From Verrucomicrobiota bacterium (GTDB taxonomy: Bacteria; Verrucomicrobiota; Verrucomicrobiia; Chthoniobacterales; Terrimicrobiaceae): a DNA stretch of 50,660 bases. Positions within the stretch are counted from its first letter, which is position 1. Each line of letters opens with the position of its first letter. A program made the position numbers and the translations under genes. The stretch lies in contig JAPLTG010000030.1 in assembly GCA_026398255.1 (NCBI GenBank), forward strand, positions 1-50,660. Direction: 5' to 3'. A model generated the notes under the pieces. It had not been told where the DNA came from. It saw nothing but the letters and a program-made list of their open reading frames with translations, and ran no database searches. Shown piece after piece: positions 22,994 to 26,380 of the stretch.

Positions 22994-24097
22994 TCACAGG
23001 TTCAAATAGCTGGTGCCGACCCACCGAGATACGAGGGCCTCCCATTCATTTGAGGAGGTGAGATCAAGCAGGCTCTGGTTGATTTTTTCAAAGTCCGGAT
23101 GATTGCTTCGCACCGGAATCGCCATGAGCGAATTACGGATGGTAATTTCAGGAATCACAAATTTCTGTGCCGGGGAGGCCTTTGCGAATTGGCGTTGAAG
23201 ATACTGTAGCGAAATTTTATCCGCCACAGTTGCATCTACTTCCTTTCGCATCATGGCCTCGAGTGCTTCTTCAATAGTTTCAAAGGGAACGACATTAACC
23301 CCGAAGCGGGTAGCCAGTTTTTCCAATTCGGAGCCCTTCAAAACCCCGCAGGTCATGTTATGAAAATCCGAAAGTCTGCTGAACGAGTTGTTCAGCCGAG
23401 AGGCGGCCATGCTGGAGGCGACAGTGGCGGTGAATGCAGAAACCAGAAGCACGCCGACAAACATCCAGCAAATGGCGATGAATCGTCCCAATAAAGTCCT
23501 CGGTGTTTTATCTCCGTAGCCGACCGTGGTCATCGTGACGGCGGAAAACCACAATGCGGCACCGATGCCATGGATGCCGCCTTGGAAATGTCCCGCATGG
23601 TGGCGCCTTTCGACAAGCCAGATCAGAAGGCTCACCACCAGCATCAATACCAAAATGCCAATGACAAATTGCCCGACAGTCCAATTCAAAAAATCATCGA
23701 TCGCCTCACTCCAAAGAAACTTCCAGGGACGCTCTCGCACGGCAATGGCGACAGGTGAAATCAAGAAAGGCTGAGTAAAATCCATGACCTTCTCGTCATC
23801 GGCTGTGACGCTGATCTCGCCGATGGCTGCATCAAGCGATCCGTTGGCCACTCCTTTGCGGATCATTTCAAAAGGAACCTCGACCAACTCGTATTCCAGC
23901 CCGGCTCGCTCGGCGACTTCCTTCCAGACTTCCACCGACAGGCCGGTCCAAGAACCGTTGGGATTTTTAAAACAGAACGGAGGTTTATCGTGGGCTCCGA
24001 CTTTCAGCGGGGCGCTGTGAAGAGTTGTGGTGATGAAGAACAAAAACCACGCGAGGCGCAGGAGTGATCGTGCTTTGGCAGGGAGTGTTGAGATCAT
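22994..24097 (-). CDS. GluR0-like ligand-gated potassium channel (bacterial ionotropic glutamate receptor)
   Basis: The 367-residue protein has a signal peptide (about 1-28) and a periplasmic solute-binding domain of the family-3 amino-acid type. That domain is split into S1 (about 30-125, with FCFKNPNGSWTGLSVEVWKE) and S2 (about 240-367, ending SRWVGTSYLNL). Between them lie a first span (about 140-162), a pore helix and the potassium filter TTVGYGD (190-196), and a second span (about 203-226). This is the layout of Synechocystis GluR0: ligand binding outside, a potassium-selective tetrameric pore in the membrane. It is divergent from the CYTH-Nudix gene with 145 bases between. Confidence 0.9.
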   Translation of the reverse strand: MISTLPAKARSLLRLAWFLFFITTTLHSAPLKVGAHDKPPFCFKNPNGSWTGLSVEVWKEVAERAGLEYELVEVPFEMIRKGVANGSLDAAIGEISVTADDEKVMDFTQPFLISPVAIAVRERPWKFLWSEAIDDFLNWTVGQFVIGILVLMLVVSLLIWLVERRHHAGHFQGGIHGIGAALWFSAVTMTTVGYGDKTPRTLLGRFIAICWMFVGVLLVSAFTATVASSMAASRLNNSFSRLSDFHNMTCGVLKGSELEKLATRFGVNVVPFETIEEALEAMMRKEVDATVADKISLQYLQRQFAKASPAQKFVIPEITIRNSLMAIPVRSNHPDFEKINQSLLDLTSSNEWEALVSRWVGTSYLNL

Positions 24098-24242: not shown

Positions 24243-25109
24243 GTGAAAGAATCATCGGCCATCGAACGAAAATACATCCTGAGCGAAACGGTCCCGGTGC
24301 TTGCGGAGCCGAAGTCCAAGCCGCTCCAGATGGGGTGTCTCAGCGCGCATGGGAACCGCGAGGTTTTCATTTGTCGGGTTGGCTCCTCCTTTTTTCTTAG
24401 GACCCGCGAGGGCCGACAACGCTTCCGGCGCGAAGTCGATATTCCGTTGGGGAAATCCCATTTTGAAGCTCTCTGGAGGCAGACCGAAGGCGCTCGGCTT
24501 GCGAAAACAACACGGCAGTCTCACCGAGAGGGGTTGAGTTTTACGGTCGAAACCGTGCACGGCGGAAAGTTTACACTCATCATCGCGGTCGTCCGTTTCG
24601 CAAAACCTCGGCTCGCGAAGTCCTTCAAGCCTCCCGGATTTTTTGGTCAGGAGATCACGAATCTTTCCGAATACTCGGAGGCCCATCTCGCGATGCACGG
24701 AATCCCTCCGCTCCATAACGGGAAATCACAGGCCGGCGCGTTGCCGTTTCTTTTTAAAAATGGCGTCCTGTACATCGTTCTTGTCACGAGTTCCTCGGGC
24801 ACGCGCTGGATTGTTCCAAAAGGGGGATTGGAAAAACACATGACCCGCCAAGAGGTCGCCTTGATGGAAGCCGCGGAAGAAGCCGGGGCGATCGGAACCA
24901 TCGAGCCGGGATTGAAGGCCGAATTTCGGATGGCGGACCAACGCGTCTTGCACCTTTACCCCTTGCGTGTCTCGGTTCTGCTCCCTTTCTGGCCGGAACG
25001 CCTGACTCGTCGGCGGGTGGTCTTGCCGATCTACCGGGCCATTCTGCGGATTCGCGATGTCGGTCTGGCACAGGCCATCCGACGAATGGCGCGAGAACTC
25101 GAGCCATAG
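24243..25109 (+). CDS. CYTH-like domain fused to a Nudix hydrolase
   Basis: The 288-residue protein begins AIERKYILSE, the E-x-K start of CYTH/triphosphate-tunnel enzymes. The rest of a diverged CYTH-like domain follows to about 155 (FFLRTREG, FRREVDIPL, ending GQEITNLSEYSEAHLAMHG). The C-terminal Nudix domain (about 163-288) has PKGGLEKHMTRQEVALMEAA and EEAGAIG (192-218), the DIPP-like form of the Nudix box. Met208 replaces the usual arginine of RE, but the metal-binding EAAEE glutamates remain. Several CYTH tunnel charges are also changed. It may hydrolyse inositol or nucleoside polyphosphates. The start is GTG 24243, right before the first conserved motif. Confidence 0.75.
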   Translation: MKESSAIERKYILSETVPVLAEPKSKPLQMGCLSAHGNREVFICRVGSSFFLRTREGRQRFRREVDIPLGKSHFEALWRQTEGARLAKTTRQSHREGLSFTVETVHGGKFTLIIAVVRFAKPRLAKSFKPPGFFGQEITNLSEYSEAHLAMHGIPPLHNGKSQAGALPFLFKNGVLYIVLVTSSSGTRWIVPKGGLEKHMTRQEVALMEAAEEAGAIGTIEPGLKAEFRMADQRVLHLYPLRVSVLLPFWPERLTRRRVVLPIYRAILRIRDVGLAQAIRRMARELEP

Positions 25110-25448: not shown

Positions 25449-26327
25449 CTAGTAGACAACTTTGTTGAGTGGATACTCGATGATTCCTTCTGCACCGAGA
25501 ATTTTCAGGCTCGGAATCATCTCGCGGACGATTTTCTCTTCGATCACCGTTTCGATGGCGACCCATCCGGGTTGGGCCAAAGGCGAAACGGTAGGATTTC
25601 GGAGAGCGGGCAGAGCCTCAAGCAATTTTTTCAAATTCGGCTCGGGCATGTTCATTTTGAGGCCGACGAGATCGCGGGCGGCAAGGGCTCCGCGGAGGAG
25701 CAGGGAGATGCGCTCGATCTTGCCGCGCTTCCATTCATCGCCCCAAGCCGAGTGGTTCGAATAGAGCGCCGGGTAGGACTCCATGAGCGTATCCACGATG
25801 CGGAGCTTGTTCGCGCGGAGCGAGGATCCGGTCTCGGTGATGTCCACAATGGCATCGACGAGGTCAGGGACTTTAACCTCTGTAGCACCCCAGGAAAATT
25901 CGACCTCGGCGTTGACCCCGGCCTTTTCAAAAAATCGTTTCGTGATGCCGACCGCCTCGGTAGCGACGCGTTTGCCTTCGAGGTCGCGGGTGGTTTGGAT
26001 CGGGGAATTCTCGGGAACCACGAGCACCCAGCGGGTGGGATTCGAGGTTGCTTTGCTGTAGGGCAGCTTGACGATCTCGCGAATATCGGAGGCATTTTCC
26101 TGCACCCAGTCGTAACCGGTGATGCCGCAATCGAGGTAACCATGTTCGATGTAGCGGCTGATCTCCTGGGCGCGAAGAAGGCGAATGCGGAGTTCGGGAT
26201 CGTCCACGGAGGGACGGTAGGAGCGGCTTGAACCGGAAATGGAATAGCCCGCCTTCGCGAAGAGAGCGATGGTCGGCTCCATGAGGCTTCCGGAGGGAAG
26301 GCCGATGGTGAGAAATTTCGAATCCAT
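25449..26327 (-). CDS. hisG: ATP phosphoribosyltransferase, long form
   Basis: HisG joins ATP and PRPP in the first step of histidine synthesis. From ATG 26327 it has 292 residues; an in-frame GTG at 26342 would add MSLAH. Motifs: LTIGLPSGSLMEPTIALFAKAG at the start, LDCGITGYDWVQEN, and the PRPP loop in DAIVDITETGSSLRANKL. Residues about 215-292 are the ACT-like C-terminal domain (NMPEPNLKKLLEALPALRNP...) that mediates histidine feedback in the long form, so a HisZ partner is not needed. No other his genes are in the window. Confidence 0.95.
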   Translation of the reverse strand: MDSKFLTIGLPSGSLMEPTIALFAKAGYSISGSSRSYRPSVDDPELRIRLLRAQEISRYIEHGYLDCGITGYDWVQENASDIREIVKLPYSKATSNPTRWVLVVPENSPIQTTRDLEGKRVATEAVGITKRFFEKAGVNAEVEFSWGATEVKVPDLVDAIVDITETGSSLRANKLRIVDTLMESYPALYSNHSAWGDEWKRGKIERISLLLRGALAARDLVGLKMNMPEPNLKKLLEALPALRNPTVSPLAQPGWVAIETVIEEKIVREMIPSLKILGAEGIIEYPLNKVVY

Positions 26328-26380
26328 GTGAGCGAGGGACACTAATCAAAAGCGCTCGGGCGCCGGCATAAAAAAATTAC

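Follow-up and report, generated by a model that had tools for sequence, protein, structure and literature searches.

A CYTH-Nudix fusion protein of Verrucomicrobiota with a suggested origin in a polyphosphate gene cluster

NeuTTM (NE1496; structures 2fbl and 3typ) of Nitrosomonas europaea is a CYTH inorganic triphosphatase. In ygiF and AtTTM3, the first glutamate of the ExE motif provides metal site 1, and the second ExE glutamate together with the first glutamate of the ExExK motif provides metal site 2 (PMC4641920). Moreover, mutation of the ExExK glutamates, the first ExE glutamate or Arg52/Arg56 in AtTTM3 or ygiF strongly reduces or impairs activity (PMC4641920). Proteins of the YgiF type join a catalytically active CYTH domain to CHAD (PMC4641920, PMC6537752), a polyphosphate-binding module (PMC6537752). 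Among Nudix enzymes, yeast DDP1 hydrolyzes polyphosphate, binds phosphate through a serine loop, and is inactive or very weak when Glu80 or Glu83 is mutated (PMC8064635).

Several gene neighborhoods connect these domains to polyphosphate. Streptomyces carries a ppk-pptA(CHAD)-Nudix operon controlled by PhoP, and the available text of that report describes no CYTH, ParA or CYTH-Nudix fusion (PMC8003754). Acidithiobacillus carries a folD-ppk-parA-CHAD cluster in which parA lies near a CYTH-CHAD gene; ParA was taken there as a plasmid or chromosome partitioning protein, and the accessible portions of the two papers describe no Nudix (PMC10892726, PMC6416229). Earlier work has already described the fusion of CYTH to CHAD, an operon that combines ppk, CHAD and Nudix, and a parA gene close to CHAD. 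Among the matches listed in open-licence PMC, however, no paper described a CYTH-Nudix fusion, and none described CHAD and ParA as a granule-positioning pair. According to a recent review, whether cells must spend energy on localizing polyphosphate (and PHB) granules remains to be seen (PMC13052382).

Here, we describe a protein of a Verrucomicrobiota bacterium (Terrimicrobiaceae; contig JAPLTG010000030.1) in which CYTH and Nudix domains are joined (Table 1). As in the YgiF-type proteins, CYTH is attached to a polyphosphate-related second domain, with Nudix as the partner in place of CHAD. With moderate confidence, we read the protein as the fused survivor of a CHAD, ParA-like ATPase, CYTH and Nudix cluster, in which a Nudix hydrolase for polyphosphate or dinucleoside polyphosphate is combined with a noncatalytic, basic CYTH domain that has a binding or structural role.

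The fusion gene and its surroundings

Table 1. Coordinates of the fusion gene and its parts in the window
Feature	Position	Strand	Basis
CYTH-Nudix fusion gene	24243..25109	+	ORF, GTG start, 288 aa
CYTH half, residues 6-151	24258..24695	+	2fbl/3typ match, residue mapping
Linker, residues 152-162	24696..24728	+	gap between two homologous stretches; borders approximate
Nudix half, residues 163-267, DIPP/DDP1-like	24729..25043	+	DDP1/DIPP1 matches
Nudix box, residues 194-216: G194, M200, M208, E209, E212, E213	24822..24890	+	alignment
C-terminal tail, residues 268-288	25044..25106	+	alignment

In the window, by which we mean the whole 50,660-nucleotide stretch of DNA that was analyzed, the fusion gene stands alone, divergent from a gene at 22994-24097 (- strand) and convergent with hisG at 25449-26342 (- strand). 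No further ATG, GTG or TTG lies upstream of its start codon in the open frame, and inspection by eye revealed no clear ribosome-binding site. The divergent neighbor encodes a bacterial glutamate-receptor-like ion channel of the ligand-gated type (SBP_bac_3, Lig_chan and Ion_trans_2), the solute-binding domain of which is split by a pore carrying the filter sequence TVGYGD.

An HMM search of the window found no CHAD, no ParA, and no second CYTH of the cluster families. The window's genome (G000) lacks CHAD, as do G015 and G003, and at E <= 1e-30 nothing in G000 matches the cluster's ParA. The genome encodes PPK1, which turned up in 25 of 28 genomes searched (all but G002, G005 and G006), and a second, separate CYTH protein (G000:C13) that scores above the Pfam cut-off. 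The link to polyphosphate, which the earlier note had also drawn, comes from the neighbor genes of relatives and from what has been published on CHAD, DDP1 and the Streptomyces operon; the window's own neighbors do not contribute to it. The link is much strengthened by the CHAD and ParA-like ATPase genes found beside relatives.

A contig search returned one true relative, L031, which is evidently the same locus as G015; the other match, L032, was 38% identical over 48 residues. In other members of the genus (L088, L089 and L092), CHAD and the fusion adjoin homologs of the window's ruvA region (3.6 to 6.2 kb). The gene has therefore moved relative to the ruvA region.

Residues, charge and selection in the CYTH half

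A single-sequence Pfam search of the window protein gave no CYTH (PF01928) match at E <= 1, let alone one at the gathering score, and a plain Pfam run would thus miss the CYTH half. The N-terminal half matched NeuTTM over residues 6-151 with an E value of 3.5e-13 by phmmer, and a profile of 19 family members gave a CYTH match of 3.7e-27. The earlier note had placed CYTH and Nudix in one chain and had made that reading depend on a CYTH match in the N-terminal half. With the match found, and with the C-terminal half matching yeast DDP1 by profile at 1.3e-14, the fusion is confirmed.

Tunnel residues were counted at 17 charged NeuTTM positions picked by motif (8 acidic and 9 basic), with K/R and D/E exchanges scored as kept and with the CYTH of G258, the frame of which is broken, excluded. 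The window protein retains nine (E8, K10, R55, R62, E64, D66, R85, K88 and E103), and the losses are E to A6, R to F42, R to C44, R to T90, E to T101, E to V116, E to R118 and K to S145. Indeed, a loss of several charged tunnel residues had been read correctly in the earlier note. Unlike NeuTTM, the window protein lacks the first ExExK glutamate (A6-I-E8-R-K10), both RxR arginines (F42/C44) and both ExE glutamates (V116/R118), and it is fused to Nudix and strongly basic. When the AtTTM3 and ygiF sites are transferred by motif spacing, a mapping of our own, the CYTH half is probably unable to assemble the pair of metal sites found in triphosphate tunnel enzymes. Judged by its lost catalytic residues, the fused CYTH is very probably not a triphosphatase. 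Moreover, only five of the nine basic tunnel positions are retained, and with several basic residues gone, the old tunnel would make no clean polyphosphate clamp.

CYTH domains outside the fusion are better preserved. Nine unfused neighboring CYTHs retain 14 to 17 of the charged positions, and six paralogs from the genus retain 14. G000:C13 retains 14 of the 17, including the ExExK and ExE glutamates and the RxR arginines that are gone from the fusion. Among fusions, G392 keeps 17, G026 keeps 15, G107 keeps 13, and the others, besides the window protein, keep 5 to 10. The fusions form a natural series, at one end of which CYTH looks like a working enzyme (G392) and at the other like an inactive, basic module. 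An AlphaFold model made from two sequences (the window protein and L031), in which the eight-stranded barrel of CYTH enzymes was sought, had a mean pLDDT of 35.5, too low to serve as a structure.

The CYTH half of the window protein has a net charge of +10 and a pI of 10.2, whereas the net charge is -4 to -11 in the proteins compared with it (NeuTTM, the nine unfused neighbors and the six genus paralogs). A basic protein is unremarkable by itself, as the window's eleven other proteins have pI values of 5.5 to 10.4; it is the contrast with the genome's other CYTH (pI 5.1) that is remarkable. Over 23 fusions, the CYTH net charge runs from -10 (G026) to +15 (G069), with 20 positive and 2 at zero. 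The CYTH half has probably been kept as a basic domain, either one that binds a polyphosphate chain or granule and would thereby bring the Nudix site to its substrate, or one that holds the protein together.

The charge was also compared with the presence of CHAD next door. In the raw contrast, 13 fusions without an adjacent CHAD had a mean of +9.2 and 9 with CHAD had a mean of +0.6 (G002 excluded). For G085 and G069, adjacency to CHAD is hidden by a contig end directly upstream of the fusion, and both genomes lack a CHAD match. A tree-based test of all 23 rows left only three independent pairs, of which one agreed, none opposed and two were equal, too few to reach 0.05. The tree gives no support to the idea that CYTH turned basic to make up for a lost CHAD.

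Both halves of the fusion are under purifying selection. Between the window and G015, omega was 0.23 (0.12 to 0.46) for CYTH and 0.07 (0.03 to 0.17) for Nudix. We think it somewhat unlikely that the CYTH half is decaying baggage, such that Nudix does the work and CYTH stays because removal would destabilize the chain. Decay would fit the lower mean pairwise identity of CYTH (0.36, versus 0.59 for Nudix; 210 pairs from 21 fusions, with G005 and G548 left out here and for dN/dS), the higher omega of CYTH in all nine pairs estimated for both halves, and the scattered, lineage-specific losses of residues. Relaxed decay would also fit the 91% identity of the fusion to that of G015, where nearly all recognizable neighbor genes reach 94 to 99.8% and one unassigned ORF reaches 88%. 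CYTH omega, however, was below 1 wherever a finite value was obtained (nine pairs, 0.02 to 0.35; the window-G003 pair was saturated), and undirected decay need not give so general a shift to positive charge.

As a separate observation, dS differed between the halves in some pairs. Window positions 24258-25043 compared with L085 gave 0.21 for CYTH and 0.59 for Nudix, and G013 compared with G002 gave 0.14 and 0.87. The gap is perhaps due to recombination within the gene.

How the CYTH half might influence its partner is the subject of another alternative. The earlier note supposed that CYTH may sense a polyphosphate and control the hydrolase. In this view, CYTH would be a true sensor, the ligand of which is triphosphate, polyphosphate or some other phosphorylated compound and would turn the Nudix half on or off; we consider this improbable. 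A CYTH that lacks key catalytic residues, and yet is basic and under selection, would suit a sensor, as would the occurrence of the fusion in six families. A conserved ligand pocket, however, is expected to be conserved, and the tunnel residues diverge among the fusions from 5 to 17 of 17. Across 19 fusions, moreover, the CYTH half has only three invariant residues (F74, W78 and L112), and nothing shows communication between the halves. A passive binding or structural role, as in the reading that we prefer, fits equally well as ligand sensing.

The Nudix half and Met208

Searched as a single sequence, the window protein scores 16.9 bits against Pfam NUDIX, below the cut-off of 21.1, and NCBIfam yields nothing beyond 13.4 bits for a Nudix model whose cut-off is 200. 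The best solved relatives of the C-terminal half are yeast DDP1 (1.4e-7 by phmmer) and human DIPP1, which comes next by profile. TSSS at residues 182-185 aligns with TSSA of DDP1, its phosphate-binding serine loop, and the equivalents of E80, E83 and E84 are kept. Unlike DDP1, the window protein is bacterial, carries an attached CYTH, has Met for the box Arg, and has SGTR in place of the AHKKR polyphosphate motif.

The strict box GX5EX7REUXEEXGU is not matched. The earlier note pointed to Met208 in place of the box Arg, which is correct, and Met200 additionally replaces the Gx5E glutamate. The note also took Met208 as a sign of altered activity, and here the relatives speak against it. Position 208 is Met in all 23 fusions, including G392 with its full set of CYTH charges, and in 18 unfused relatives it varies (K in six, R in three, L in three, Q in two, and M, E, N and A in one each). 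Since the residue is fixed in the fusions and the site is variable in unfused relatives, Met208 is not decay, and a derived loss of Nudix activity is ruled out as its meaning. Position 200 is likewise Met in 21 fusions, Leu in 2, and never Glu in the family. E209, E212 and E213, finally, are invariant in all 41 proteins (23 fusions and 18 unfused).

Could the Nudix half also be nonenzymatic and the whole protein a polyphosphate-binding scaffold? We regard this as very improbable. The replacement of both the Gx5E glutamate and the box Arg by Met points in that direction, but the metal-binding glutamates are invariant, and neither replaced residue is a rule among the unfused relatives, in which Glu never occupies the Gx5E position and Arg is found in so few. 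Moreover, the residues corresponding to Glu80 and Glu83, which DDP1 needs for activity, are both kept (PMC8064635). We conclude that the Nudix half most likely works as a Mg-dependent pyrophosphohydrolase like DIPP and DDP1, the predicted substrate of which is inorganic polyphosphate or a dinucleoside polyphosphate.

Spread of the fusion and the cluster in relatives

The fusion occurs in 20 of 97 relatives, with the window's own genome included; 19 are in one piece and that of G005 is cut by a contig end. It is found in 10 of 16 members of the window's genus and in none of 10 from other genera of its family, and by label it spans six families (f1, f2, f13, f6, f59 and f66). The 20 carriers and a dN/dS below 1 in both halves indicate that the fusion is real beyond chance. 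With the Nudix half alone as query, 23 of the 97 matched. Two matches were weak (G024 and G061), and the remaining 21 were 18 checked fusions and three (G099, G102 and G105) called fusions by frame length alone (290 to 297 aa).

Wider searches gave sparser results. A class-wide draw yielded 10 of 188 at E <= 1e-20, all from the same order. A phylum-wide profile search found some match in 48 of 387 genomes at E <= 1e-15, with both halves in one frame in six (G000, G049, G057, G064, G392 and G548); the other matches had one half per frame, and some of these were neighbors. No phage relatives of the fusion were found.

In a Nudix tree (built without G005, G075 and G090), 19 of 20 fusions formed one clade (support 98/99). 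G548 was a long branch outside it, and the fusion label therefore needs two changes on that tree. In a CYTH tree, a modestly supported branch (80/63) has the 23 fusions on one side. A single fusion event would be the simplest reading of these trees, not a proved one. CYTH has also met another partner: in L064 16-1968 (G275), it lies at the C terminus of a much longer frame, of which 650 aa fall in the fetched locus and 1113 aa are open in the genome.

The neighbors of relatives suggest that the fusion gene derives from a polyphosphate gene cluster. In G371 and G327, genes for CHAD, a ParA-like ATPase, CYTH and Nudix follow in this order with overlapping ends, and Pfam confirms every part in G371 and G392. 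A phylum-wide search gave 26 places with an unfused Nudix, 18 of which were fetched. CHAD was present at nine of these loci, CYTH at seven, the ATPase at seven, and all four at five (G371, G327, G258, G554 and G459); G365 has all four besides. Counting the window and 22 fetched loci, CHAD adjoins nine of 23 fusions, and the ATPase is present as well at two of these (G005 and G392), both in the order CHAD, ParA, fusion. With the G392 ATPase as query, 16 of 387 genomes matched at E <= 1e-30, and CHAD lay next door in 13 of the 16, in several gene orders. The three without an adjacent CHAD were G567, with Nudix beside the ATPase, G407 and G217.

The cluster extends to plasmids. A tblastn search of plasmids with the window protein matched seven records, six of them from Paracoccus. 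In each of five Paracoccus loci inspected, annotations of CHAD, an AAA ATPase and CYTH follow one another. An annotated NUDIX gene comes next in three, and a fourth has an unannotated Nudix ORF.

Why these four genes would travel together invites speculation. The pairing of CHAD with ParA resembles McdAB, which positions carboxysomes with a ParA-type ATPase and a cargo-binding protein (PMC13052382). Perhaps CHAD, ParA, CYTH and Nudix make up an unrecognized system of the ParA type by which polyphosphate granules are tethered, spaced and trimmed; CHAD would then serve as cargo adaptor, and the hydrolases would control chain length. Such a system would have collapsed, in the window's lineage, to one protein, with a dead, basic CYTH replacing CHAD as the polymer holder for Nudix. 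We offer this broader idea only tentatively and think it rather unlikely. Unlike in McdAB, the cargo would be polyphosphate, the positioning role is a prediction, and no ParA lies beside the window gene. Nevertheless, a compact cluster of a polyphosphate-binding CHAD, a ParA-like ATPase and two phosphohydrolases makes the question of granule localization testable in culturable Paracoccus.

Two further features of the cluster proteins were seen. The cluster CHAD proteins (L107 9594-11114) have an N-terminal 200 aa without a Pfam match and with a conserved DTFDW-like motif, a region that may resemble a divergent CYTH domain. On Paracoccus marcusii pKGP1 (L166 4233-5495), a single annotated frame (420 aa) holds both the ParA-like ATPase and CYTH, which makes a second fusion in this cluster.
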